Shown here piece by piece: positions 4,307 through 35,457 of a stretch of DNA of 41,989 nucleotides; positions within the stretch are counted from its first letter, which is position 1; every line of letters starts with the position of its first letter. Made by a program: the position numbers and the translations under genes. Location: NCBI GenBank assembly GCA_016875995.1, contig VGOG01000009.1:1-41989 (forward strand). The letters are read 5' to 3'. The notes beneath the pieces are model-generated. The model was not told where the DNA came from. It was given only the letters and a program-made list of their open reading frames with translations, and did not search any database. The stretch is from Chloroflexota bacterium. Lineage in GTDB: Bacteria > Chloroflexota > Anaerolineae > VGOG01.

Positions 4307-5769
4307 CATCACAGAAAAGAGAGATAATGACGCTTGGACACGTGGCGCGCGTGGCAGGCGTAGTAGTGGATGTGGAGTTCGCCGTGGGCGACCTGCCCGG
4401 TATTCACCACGCGCTGCTCGTCGAGCGCGACGAAGGCCCACCCCTGGTGATCGAGGTGCAGGAGCACGTTGACCCCGCTACTGTGCGCGGCATGGCGATG
4501 GCTTCCACCGCGGGGCTGCGCCGGGGCCTGGCAGTACGGGACACCGGCCAGCCGATCATGGTGCCGGTCGGCCGGGCCACCCTGGGCCGCATCTTCAACG
4601 TGCTGGGGGAGCCCGTAGACGATGGCCCCCCCCTGTCCCCCCCAATGGTGGGGGAGGAGGGGGGCGTGGCGCGCCAGCCCATTCACGTGGACGCCCCGCC
4701 GCTGCGGGAGCAGGAAGCCGCCACCCGGATGCTCACCACCGGCATCAAGGTCATTGATCTGCTCACCCCCTATGGCCGGGGGGGCAAGATCGGCCTCTTC
4801 GGCGGGGCCGGGGTGGGCAAGACGCTGCTCATGATCGAACTGATTCGCCACACCATCGTCCGCCCCCCTGACCCCCTAAAGTTGGGGGGAACGGGGGGAC
4901 AGGGCATCGTCCTCTTCGCCGGCGTGGGCGAACGCAGCCGTGAGGGCAATGAACTGTGGCTCGAGATGCAGCGCAGCGGCGTCCTGGCGCGCACTGTCCT
5001 GGTCTTCGGCCAGATGAACGAGCCGCCGGGCGCTCGCCTGCGCCTGCCCTTCACCGCCCTGACCATGGCCGAGCACTTTCGCGATCAGGAGCAGCAGGAT
5101 GTGCTGTTGTTCATTGATAACATTTACCGCTACATTCAGGCCGGTATGGAGGTTTCGGCCCTGCTGGGTCGCCTGCCCAGCGCGGTCGGCTATCAGCCTA
5201 CCCTCTCTACCGAGATGGGCGAACTGCAGGAACGCATCTCCTCCACCAGCCGGGGAGCCATCACCTCCGTGCAGGCCATCTACGTGCCAGCCGACGACTT
5301 GACCGACCCGGCGGTGGCTGCCACCTTCGCCCACCTGGACGCCATCACCGTCCTCTCCCGCCGCCAAGCCAGCCAGGGTTTCTATCCGGCCGTGGACCCC
5401 TTGCAGTCCAGCTCACGGCTGCTGGATCCCCGACTGGTCGGCCAGCGCCACGAGCGCGTGGCCAGGGAGGTGCGAGCCTTGCTGGCCCATCACGAGGAAT
5501 TGCGCGACATCATCTCCATCCTGGGCGTGGAGGAGCTCTCCGAGGAGGATCAGATAGTGGTGGGGCGGGCGCGCCGCCTGCAGCGTTTCCTCACCCAGCC
5601 CTTCTTCGTGGCCGAGCCTTTCACCGCCCTGGCGGGCCGCTACGTCCCTTTGGAAGAGACCCTGCGCGGCTGCGAGGAGATCCTGGAGGGCAAGCACGAC
5701 GACCTGCCAGAGCAGGCTTTCTACATGGTGGGTACCATTGACGAGGCAGTAGCCAAGGCAGGGGATTAG
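4303..5769 (+). CDS. atpD: N-type ATPase F1 beta subunit
   Basis: Catalytic beta subunit of an F-type ATPase, 488 residues. It has the P-loop GGAGVGKT (about 167-174), [12 protein letters not shown] (about 207-218, catalytic Glu), Walker [15 protein letters not shown] and a DELSEED-like VEELSEEDQ. Being first in a D-C-R-B-E-F-A-G order marks the N-ATPase type. The GTG at 4303 overlaps the hppA stop (GTGA); ATG 4327 after AGAGAG is an equally plausible start. Two palindromic C/G repeats are inserted in frame: one at about residues 109-121, before the P-loop, giving PPMVGEEGG, and one at about 188-199, in the loop between the P-loop helix and the GVGER strand, giving [12 protein letters not shown]. 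All catalytic motifs are intact, so it is probably functional. Confidence 0.95.
4626..4664 (+). repeat. C/G palindromic repeat, copy 1 (inside atpD)
   Basis: A C-tract, TGT, C-tract, AATGG, G-tract, AGGA, G-tract unit of about 39 bases. It is self-complementary and in frame with atpD, coding for a Pro-rich then Gly-rich peptide ahead of the P-loop domain. It belongs to the dispersed family described in the findings. Confidence 0.8.
4863..4898 (+). repeat. C/G palindromic repeat, copy 2 (inside atpD)
   Basis: A 36-base unit of the type C6-TGA-C5-TAAAGTT-G6-AAC-G6, in frame within atpD. It lies between the P-loop helix and the GVGER strand, where other beta subunits have only a short loop (KAHGG-like). 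Confidence 0.85.
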
Positions 5770-5774
5770 ACAAG

Positions 5775-33655: not shown

Positions 33656-35457
33656 GCCATTATCTCCACTGCCAGGGCGTCAATCTGGGCGAAGAGCTGC
33701 TGGTCGGTGAAATGCTGCATGGAGATGGCCATCTCCGGGCAGCCTGCGCCGCACACTCCGCAGCCCTTGCACGAAGCGGCGATGGTCTGTGCCTTGCGGC
33801 CTGCCCCCCCTTCATCCCCCCCAACTTGGGGGGGGAAAGAGGGGGAGCGCAGCACGATGGCCTTGTAGGGACACACGGTCTCACACAGCCCACAGCCGAT
33901 GCACTTCTCCTCGTCCACCACCGAGATGATGGGCTCGACCTGCACCGCCCCTTTGCCCAGCAGGATCGAGGCCCGCGCGGCCGCACCGTAGGCCTGGGCC
34001 ACGCTCTCCCCTACGTCGGCCGGCCAGTGGGCACAGCCGCACAGGAATATGCCGTCGGTGGCGAAGTCCAATGGCCGGAGCTTGACGTGGGCTTCCAGGA
34101 AGAAGCCGTGCTCGTCCACCGGCACCTTGAGCATCTGCGCCAGGTTTGCGGCGTCGGCCTGGCTGACCAGCGGGGTGGACAGGACGACCAGGTCGCAGGG
34201 AATACCCAGCGTCTGGCCCAGCAGCTCGTCGTACACCATCACCTTTCCATCTTGGACAGTTGGCGGCGATTGTGGGCGGTACTGGATGAAGTTCACCCCC
34301 CGGCCCCTGGCTTCGCGGTACAGGCCCTCGTATTCGGCTCCCAGAGTCAGCATATCCCGATAGAGCACGTACACCTGTGCCTCTGGATCGGCTTCCTTGA
34401 TCAACAGCGCGTTCTTGACGGCCGTCATACAGCAGATGCGGGAGCAATAGGGCCGCGCCTCGTCCCGCGCGCCCACGCATTGAATCATCACCACCGTTTG
34501 GAAATTGGATGTTGGAAGTTGGATGTTGGAAGTTGGATGTTGGAAGTTGGATGTTGGACGTTGGCCTCCAATCTCTAGCCTCCAATCTCTAACCTCCAAC
34601 CTCCAATCCCTTTCCAGCATGGCTTCTAACTCACTCTGGGCCACCACCAACGGGTTGACACCGTAGCTATACATCCCCACCGGCTTGAGCTCCTTCGCGC
34701 CGGTGGCGACGATGATGGCCCCCACGCTGAAGCCGAATTCTCTCTCCCCTTGCCCCACCACCACCTCGTAGTTGCCCACGAAGCCCCTGACGTCGCGCAC
34801 TTCGGCCCCGGTGAAAACCTCGATGTTCGGGTGGCCCTTGGCCGCCTCCACCCTTGCTTCGATGAAGGCCCGCGCGTCGTCCCCGGTCGGATACAGACGG
34901 TGCACGCCTCTCAGCAGGCCGCCCATCTCTGGCTCCCGCTCCACCAGCTTGACCTCGAAGCCCCGCTTGGCCAGGTTGAGGGCGGCGCTCAGGCCGGCCA
35001 CGCCTGCCCCGATCACCAGCGCCGCAGGGACGACTTCCACTTCGATGCTCTCCTTGGGCTCCAGGAGCACGGCTCTGGCCACCCCCATGCGCAGCAGGTC
35101 CTTCGCCTTTGCGGTGGCCCGCTCCCGCTCCTGCATGTGCACCCACGAGCACTGGTCCCGAATATTGACGAACTCGAATAAGTAAGGATTGAGCCCTGCC
35201 TGCTGGCAGGTGGAACGGAAGAGGGGCTCGTGGGTGCGGGGGGTACACGAGGCCACCACCACGCGGTTCAAATCGTGCTCGGTGATGCCCTTCACGATCT
35301 GCGCCCGCCCGGCGTCGGCACAGGTGTACATGTTGTCCTGAGCGAAGACGACGTGGGGCAAGGTCTGGGCGTAATCTATCAGCGCCGGCACATCCAGGAA
35401 GCCGGCGATGTTGCTCCCACAGTGGCAAATAAAGACGCCTACCCTGGCCTCGTCCAC
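33652..35457 (-). CDS. hdrA: HdrA-like flavoprotein with two kinds of in-frame repeats
   Basis: 601 residues: GVFICHCGSNIAGF N-terminal Fe-S domain, IGAGVAGLSAA FAD site (about 148), MIQCVGARDEARPYCSRICC, and two C-terminal ferredoxin motifs CIGCGLCETVCP and CKGCGVCGAGCP. A long TTGGATGTTGGAAG array (34499-34612) codes for about 38 residues (282-319) just before VVMIQCVG. A C/G palindrome (33804-33846) codes for PSFPPQVGGDEGG between the two ferredoxin motifs. The GTG start lies 3 bases after the previous stop. Confidence 0.92.
   Translation of the reverse strand: MDEARVGVFICHCGSNIAGFLDVPALIDYAQTLPHVVFAQDNMYTCADAGRAQIVKGITEHDLNRVVVASCTPRTHEPLFRSTCQQAGLNPYLFEFVNIRDQCSWVHMQERERATAKAKDLLRMGVARAVLLEPKESIEVEVVPAALVIGAGVAGLSAALNLAKRGFEVKLVEREPEMGGLLRGVHRLYPTGDDARAFIEARVEAAKGHPNIEVFTGAEVRDVRGFVGNYEVVVGQGEREFGFSVGAIIVATGAKELKPVGMYSYGVNPLVVAQSELEAMLERDWRLEVRDWRLEIGGQRPTSNFQHPTSNIQLPTSNFQTVVMIQCVGARDEARPYCSRICCMTAVKNALLIKEADPEAQVYVLYRDMLTLGAEYEGLYREARGRGVNFIQYRPQSPPTVQDGKVMVYDELLGQTLGIPCDLVVLSTPLVSQADAANLAQMLKVPVDEHGFFLEAHVKLRPLDFATDGIFLCGCAHWPADVGESVAQAYGAAARASILLGKGAVQVEPIISVVDEEKCIGCGLCETVCPYKAIVLRSPSFPPQVGGDEGGAGRKAQTIAASCKGCGVCGAGCPEMAISMQHFTDQQLFAQIDALAVEIMA
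33804..33846 (-). repeat. C/G palindromic repeat, copy 9 (in HdrA)
   Basis: C7-TTCAT-C7-AACTT-G8-AAAGA-G5, the TTCAT subtype. It is in frame between the two [4Fe-4S] motifs of HdrA. It is the only copy of the family in the minus-strand cluster. Confidence 0.85.
34499..34612 (+). repeat. Long repeat array (TTGGATGTTGGAAG x4) in HdrA
   Basis: Four GTTGGAAGTTGGAT-type units, followed by the complementary class CCTCCAATCTCTAACCTCCAAC. In frame, it codes on the minus strand for ERDWRLEVRDWRLEIG and TSNFQHPTSNIQLPTSNFQ. Confidence 0.85.

Follow-up and report, generated by a model that had tools for sequence, protein, structure and literature searches.

Short C/G-run palindromic elements reside in frame within protein genes of a Chloroflexota genome

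Rickettsia palindromic elements (RPEs; Ogata 2000) are approximately 150 bp in length and nearly half of them lie in ORFs (review PMC10969869). REPs tagged with GTAG or CGTC are mostly intergenic, while some genomes contain many intragenic copies, including copies in DNA polymerase I and tRNA synthetases; GTAG repeats were reported from several phyla, Chloroflexi among them (PMC3733652). The window analysed here (i.e., the whole stretch of 41,989 nucleotides) is a contig of a fragmented metagenome-assembled genome (MAG), referred to here as G000, that comprises 4.29 Mb in 414 contigs. We found that the window contains short palindromic elements at nine loci, two of them double, as the first-pass annotation had reported and as a direct reading of the sequence confirms. 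Our data indicate that these are very probably copies of a selfish, non-autonomous palindromic element that behaves like RPEs and is kept only where reading frame and protein fold survive.

The elements are 33-47 nt long. Two C runs separated by a short spacer are followed by a loop and then by two G runs, again separated by a spacer, so that two C/G-run arms, one nested in the other, enclose a loop of the AACTTT/AAAGTT type. Sometimes a third tier is present (e.g., at the MoaA and MCH sites) or the element is doubled. Loops among elements include AAAGTT, AACTTT, ACT, and AACTT, among others, while the spacers are TGA/AAC or TTCAT/AAAGA. Two consensus forms had been described from the window, and both are seen; however, they share one core, AAAGTT and AACTTT being reverse complements, and only the spacers differ. 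The family has terminal inverted repeats and many dispersed copies. The bases flanking 60 elements were variable, mainly G...C or T...C, with no constant tag. RNA folding of five examples gave hairpins of -26 to -38 kcal/mol (z of approximately -2 to -3). The length of an element need not be divisible by 3; only the net change to the gene is. Indeed, a rule that length itself be a multiple of 3 was ruled out, the in-frame elements being 0, 1, and 2 mod 3 in 24, 15, and 12 cases.

Within the window, the full two-tier form is found at 4626, 4863, 6034, 12325, 13569, and 33804, degraded or variant copies at 11764, 12487, and 18916, and double elements at 11764-11829 and 13528-13610 (Table 1). A strict motif with up to 3 mismatches matched the window 7 times (both strands) compared to 0.00 times in 100 dinucleotide shuffles. 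Every window copy sits inside an open frame or at its 3' end, and the frame remains open, in agreement with the first-pass annotation, and the element is C-terminal in its host at 6034, 11764, and 18916. The hosts are AtpD (twice), AtpC, an antiporter-like subunit (three sites), a NuoC-like subunit, and an HdrA-like protein; a Pfam search with the 125-residue host ORF gave no match, and no family was assigned to it. The extra peptides are predicted to add 10-20 Pro/Gly-rich amino acids to host enzymes such as ATP synthase. For comparison we used two relatives, G301 and G302, which are family members and 80-92% identical to G000 at the closest genes.

Table 1. Palindromic elements of the window and the genes that host them
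Feature	Position	Strand	Support or comparison
Host gene atpD (F1 ATP synthase beta subunit), two inserts	4303..5769	+	TIGR01039, 677.6 bits
Palindromic element in atpD, 39 nt, 13-residue peptide	4626..4664	+	Net +24 nt vs G302
Palindromic element in atpD, 36 nt, 12-residue peptide	4863..4898	+	Net +33 nt vs G302
Host gene atpC (epsilon subunit, N-terminal domain only)	5775..6086	+	PF02823, 61.2 bits
Palindromic element, 36 nt, atpC C-terminus, peptide APLTPQSWGERGEGRDP	6034..6069	+	
Host ORF, 125 aa, C-terminus made by double element	11469..11846	+	
Double element (11764-11803 + 11805-11829)	11764..11829	+	
Host gene, proton-translocating antiporter-like subunit, three insert sites	12138..14171	+	PF00361, 63.4 bits
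Palindromic element, 36 nt, in antiporter-like subunit	12325..12360	+	
Degraded palindromic element, A interrupting inner G arm, in antiporter-like subunit	12487..12526	+	
Double element, first half, core in opposite orientation, in antiporter-like subunit	13528..13568	+	
Double element, second half, 42 nt, in antiporter-like subunit	13569..13610	+	RNA hairpin, -37.5 kcal/mol
Host gene, NuoC/FpoC-like subunit	18491..18985	+	NF040611, 64.6 bits; NF004735, 62.5 bits; both below curated cut-offs
Palindromic element, 40 nt, C-terminus of NuoC/FpoC-like subunit	18916..18955	+	
Host gene, HdrA-like protein	33652..35457	-	NF040770, 573.7 bits, below curated cut-off
Palindromic element, 42 nt, peptide PSFPPQVGGDEGG between ferredoxin-type motifs of HdrA-like protein	33804..33845	-	

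The window also contains many heptanucleotide tandem arrays, at 20083-20125, 21897-21943, 22503-22590, 26413-26447, 30655-30677, 32829-32859, 34498-34606, and 40266-40307. Several lie inside ORFs and are predicted to be translated (e.g., as DKGQGTGDKGQGARDKGQG and PTSNFQHPTSNIQLPTSNFQ). They are a second class of in-gene repeats, with a period that is not a multiple of 3. The end of atpC in G302 also resembles a heptanucleotide array.

A whole-genome search by consensus, which the first-pass annotation had proposed, revealed a dispersed family. We counted 59 occurrences of the 16-base core CCCCCAAAGTTGGGGG in the 4.29-Mb genome and 0 of the reversed control pattern. A looser structural pattern gave 587 overlapping matches compared to 18, and calibration of the loose-pattern matches at 3.77 matches per element yields approximately 156 elements genome-wide. 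With approximately 10 elements in 1% of the genome the window is locally rich, as expected because it was picked for these elements. The palindromes had been described as lying in energy-metabolism genes, but this reflects the content of the window; genome-wide, the hosts are general. They include AlaRS, LeuB, GlgA, a rhamnulokinase-like protein, a B12-radical SAM protein, ABC ATPases, and a GcvH-like protein; PolA, a transglycosylase/transpeptidase (PBP), a MoaA-like protein, an adenine deaminase-like protein, MCH, and a Nuo51-like protein; and ETF alpha, a ProRS-like protein, FTR, and a multi-domain FAD/4Fe-4S protein. In addition, locus L136 contains, 3' of position 2478, an apparent degraded element that would encode STLPPQGWGGPRGG within a protein of the pyridine-nucleotide oxidoreductase type. 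Neither G301 nor G302 has this element, and because of it we consider degraded copies to be undercounted.

To avoid selection by element shape, we placed all 59 exact cores, using coding calls from a codon model trained on window genes. Overall, 47 cores were internal and in frame, 4 were C-terminal, 5 were N-terminal or other, and 3 were non-coding, while random positions fell into the same classes at 70, 8, 14, and 8%, respectively. The element therefore does not avoid genes. In a shape-selected set of 60 elements, 51 were internal and in frame, 3 were C-terminal, 5 were N-terminal or unclear, and 1 was non-coding. A depletion of non-coding copies was also considered; it was weak in the shape-selected set (1/60) and gone with all 59 cores (3/59 vs 7.9% of random positions, P=0.30). 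Simulated random insertions were in frame in only 149 of 573 cases, compared to 51 of the 60 elements, in keeping with the in-frame placement noted before; 412 of 573 random positions were in-frame coding. Among the placed elements we found no clear case of a frame-broken host gene.

The six frames and strands are used about equally by the 59 cores (12, 12, 10, 9, 8, and 8). Since the frames are used equally and the cores are identical, our data point to copying of DNA rather than convergence at the protein level. All six frames are open in 24 of 60 elements and five in another 29 (53/60 with five or six), and the freedom of frame is mostly intrinsic to the element. The chance of every used frame being open by luck is approximately 2e-4. 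An earlier suggestion that stop-free frames are selected is borne out in part: all examined sites preserve the net frame, but the elements' avoidance of their own stops is only modest by this estimate. Net-frame retention probably arises because selection acts on the host gene.

Approximately 20 sites have an orthologue in G301 or G302. At these sites the peptide is missing in G301 at every orthologue found, and in G302 it is missing at most and present at a few. Empty orthologous sites include those in AtpD, ProRS, LeuB, PolA, MoaA, GlgA, MCH, the B12-radical SAM protein, and an epimerase, among others. G301 is essentially without such elements, and its orthologue of the antiporter-like subunit is missing the entire stretch of the 13528-13610 double element. 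The G302 orthologue of atpD is without both inserts, and PDB relatives of AtpD show alignment gaps at both; the second (4863..4898) lies soon after the Walker A motif and folds as an RNA hairpin of -25.9 kcal/mol. Distant PDB relatives of LeuB also show a gap in place of the peptide, which in G000 adjoins the conserved GSAPDIA stretch. The HdrA insert at 33804..33845 is missing from the related HdrA-like proteins of G301 and G302, which are distant paralogues. Three-row alignments gave AlphaFold models with mean pLDDT of 37.6 for AtpD and 51.2 for LeuB, too poor for placing the loops in three dimensions.

Insertions in the adenine deaminase and mannosyltransferase genes are common to G000 and G302, with none in G301, and one HdrA-like insertion is also common to G000 and G302. 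In all three the sequence has diverged while the frame is kept. Since the peptide is absent at most orthologous sites and common at few, the insertions are real and mostly recent. We looked for the same peptides in repeat-free orthologues, an outcome that would speak against insertion, and they were absent from G301, from most G302 sites, and from the PDB relatives.

Simple two-tier insertions produce a net difference of 24-39 nt, in frame and approximately 3-15 nt below the element length, while tiered or extended insertions produce 48-69 nt. The empty sites support insertion into repeat-free genes, but for simple insertions the net change is smaller than the element and seems not to fit the clean unit that had been anticipated. 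This suggests that a few target bases (approximately 3-15 nt) are lost on insertion, although the orthologues are diverged and indels in variable loops could mimic such a loss. No target-site duplication was evident at the sites compared with G301 and G302, where divergence of the orthologues prevents an empty site from being defined to the base.

We propose that the element would be copied as DNA into many sites, whatever their strand and frame, and that the joining would replace the target bases (approximately 3-15 nt) instead of adding a clean unit. Inserts would survive where the net frame is kept, no stop is introduced, and the protein position tolerates a Pro/Gly-rich loop; other insertions, including those that break the frame, would be lost. 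The surviving peptides would presumably be translated and bring no benefit to the host. Copy number, six-frame use, net frame conservation, and absence or sharing at orthologous sites are seen directly in the data. Copying of a transposition-like kind is most likely, although the apparent lack of a target-site duplication and a net insertion unequal to element length are not predicted by a simple transposition model. A search for a Y1 transposase partner gave two PF01797 matches, with no elements within approximately 1.5 kb (loci of approximately 3.3 kb); the MAG is incomplete and may lack a transposase gene that is flanked by elements. A scan of 106 loci (up to 8 kb) for paired ends 150-3000 bp apart, as an autonomous transposon with shared ends might have, returned ten candidate loci, which are scattered.

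The main rival to transposition-like copying is growth in place, in which short C/G quasi-palindromes would lengthen through template switching, or through gene conversion among copies, with no mobile unit. Extra tiers at some elements (MoaA, MCH) and the apparent replacement rather than retention of target bases would fit such growth. At the PBP site, furthermore, tier number differs among the three genomes: G000 has three tiers and G302 has a shorter palindrome, and nothing beyond CCCCAAGGGG is present in G301. However, an exact core at 59 genomic places and in six frames requires a copied template, and most empty orthologous sites contain no C/G palindrome from which to grow, so we regard growth in place as unlikely. 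It is much less probable still that the peptides are functional and selected (e.g., as loops tuning host enzymes). The frame has been kept after G000 and G302 diverged (adenine deaminase, mannosyltransferase, and the HdrA-like gene), but purifying selection on the host alone predicts this; the near-equal use of six frames means that the peptides differ, the hosts are unrelated proteins, and most sites are private to one genome.

In some yeast mitochondria, hairpins are bypassed during translation. Skipping of the inserts in translation, or their removal afterwards, would fit the stable RNA hairpins (-26 to -38 kcal/mol) and insertion beside conserved sites such as that in LeuB, but it needs neither net frame conservation nor absence of stops, yet both hold, and we give it hardly any credence. 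An assembly or sequencing artefact, which the first-pass annotation had raised and which a fragmented MAG of 414 contigs might invite, is extremely improbable given insertions common to two distinct MAGs with diverged sequences, frame kept at the examined sites, similar elements in open coding frames of a third MAG from another family, and the core in isolate cyanobacteria such as Moorena bouillonii.

We found the core CCCCCCAACTTTGGGGGG in at least many cyanobacteria (Moorena, Okeania, Snowella, Symploca, and others), Caldilineaceae, other Chloroflexota, and Poribacteria, while searches of viral contigs and of the text of the papers covered gave no match to it. In cyanobacteria and other Chloroflexota, the core usually makes up the left half of a larger element with two hairpins, commonly of 82 bp. 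In genomes below 56% GC, 6 of 67 copies of the two-hairpin element lie in ORFs (scored as lying 60 or more codons within an open frame) compared to 47% of random positions; therefore, in these genomes it avoids genes. One Chloroflexi MAG contains the two-hairpin form within a long coding frame. Plasmids of Synechocystis PCC 6803 carry full-length relatives with approximately 75% identity, and the pSYSM copy (L323, 1501-1570) sits between two annotated genes. G343, from another family of the same class, contains a related type with the same TTCAT/TCTTT spacers, largely in open coding frames; two of these elements lie in frame in genes that, judged by eye, resemble those for ATP synthase gamma and alpha subunits (contig C97, L305, 1761-1802 and 2577-2619). 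In the 7.7-Mb G065, of the same phylum, the reversed control GGGGGTTGAAACCCCC occurs 101 times (48+53) and the forward pattern 0 times; these repeats are another C/G-run palindromic family. We tentatively suggest, as a possibility we would not favour outright, that an element that crosses phyla and elsewhere avoids genes may have turned gene-dwelling here, as a single hairpin with five or six of six frames open, inserted in essential genes at approximately random density by a joining that replaces few target bases and leaves no duplication.

Here, in a lineage remote from Rickettsia, DNA that looks mobile provides another clear case of peptides being added to functioning enzymes. Most of its copies reside in genes, and close relatives show sites that are empty, shared, or altered. 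The case allows one to ask how often essential proteins tolerate random peptide insertions and how a selfish element comes to reside in coding sequence. The cyanobacterial relatives, including those on the Synechocystis PCC 6803 plasmids, offer a possible laboratory model for the mobility step.

Among the systems most similar to this one, the two-hairpin element of cyanobacteria and other Chloroflexota, for which we found no published name, has an identical core, and its left hairpin is closely similar (GCCCCCCTAG...GGGGGGAAC), but it commonly has a second hairpin, GCCCCC/GGGGGC ends, and a length of approximately 82 bp, and it is depleted in ORFs, whereas the single-hairpin element here is not depleted. 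Like MITEs and REPINs, the elements are small, apparently non-autonomous, multi-copy inverted repeats; no parent transposon or evident target-site duplication was found here. In REP/REPIN systems with RAYT, the Y1 transposase gene is flanked by repeats, whereas the two Y1 genes here are without flanking elements. With GTAG/CGTC REPs the elements share short hairpins, single and double arrangement, and some residence within genes (PMC3733652), but those REPs have an unpaired GTAG or CGTC end, with no such tag in the flanks of the 60 elements here, and are mostly intergenic, whereas the elements here are mostly intragenic. The likeness to RPEs drawn by the first-pass annotation holds for behaviour: both are palindromic repeats in frame in unrelated protein genes, with lineage-specific copies and peptides that are apparently tolerated. 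The short length and high G+C content of the elements here set them apart from RPEs as described (PMC10969869), as does placement, nearly half of RPEs being in ORFs compared to 47 of 59 cores internal in genes here. Palindromic in-frame inserts are a known kind, and what is notable here is how large a fraction of the copies lies within genes.
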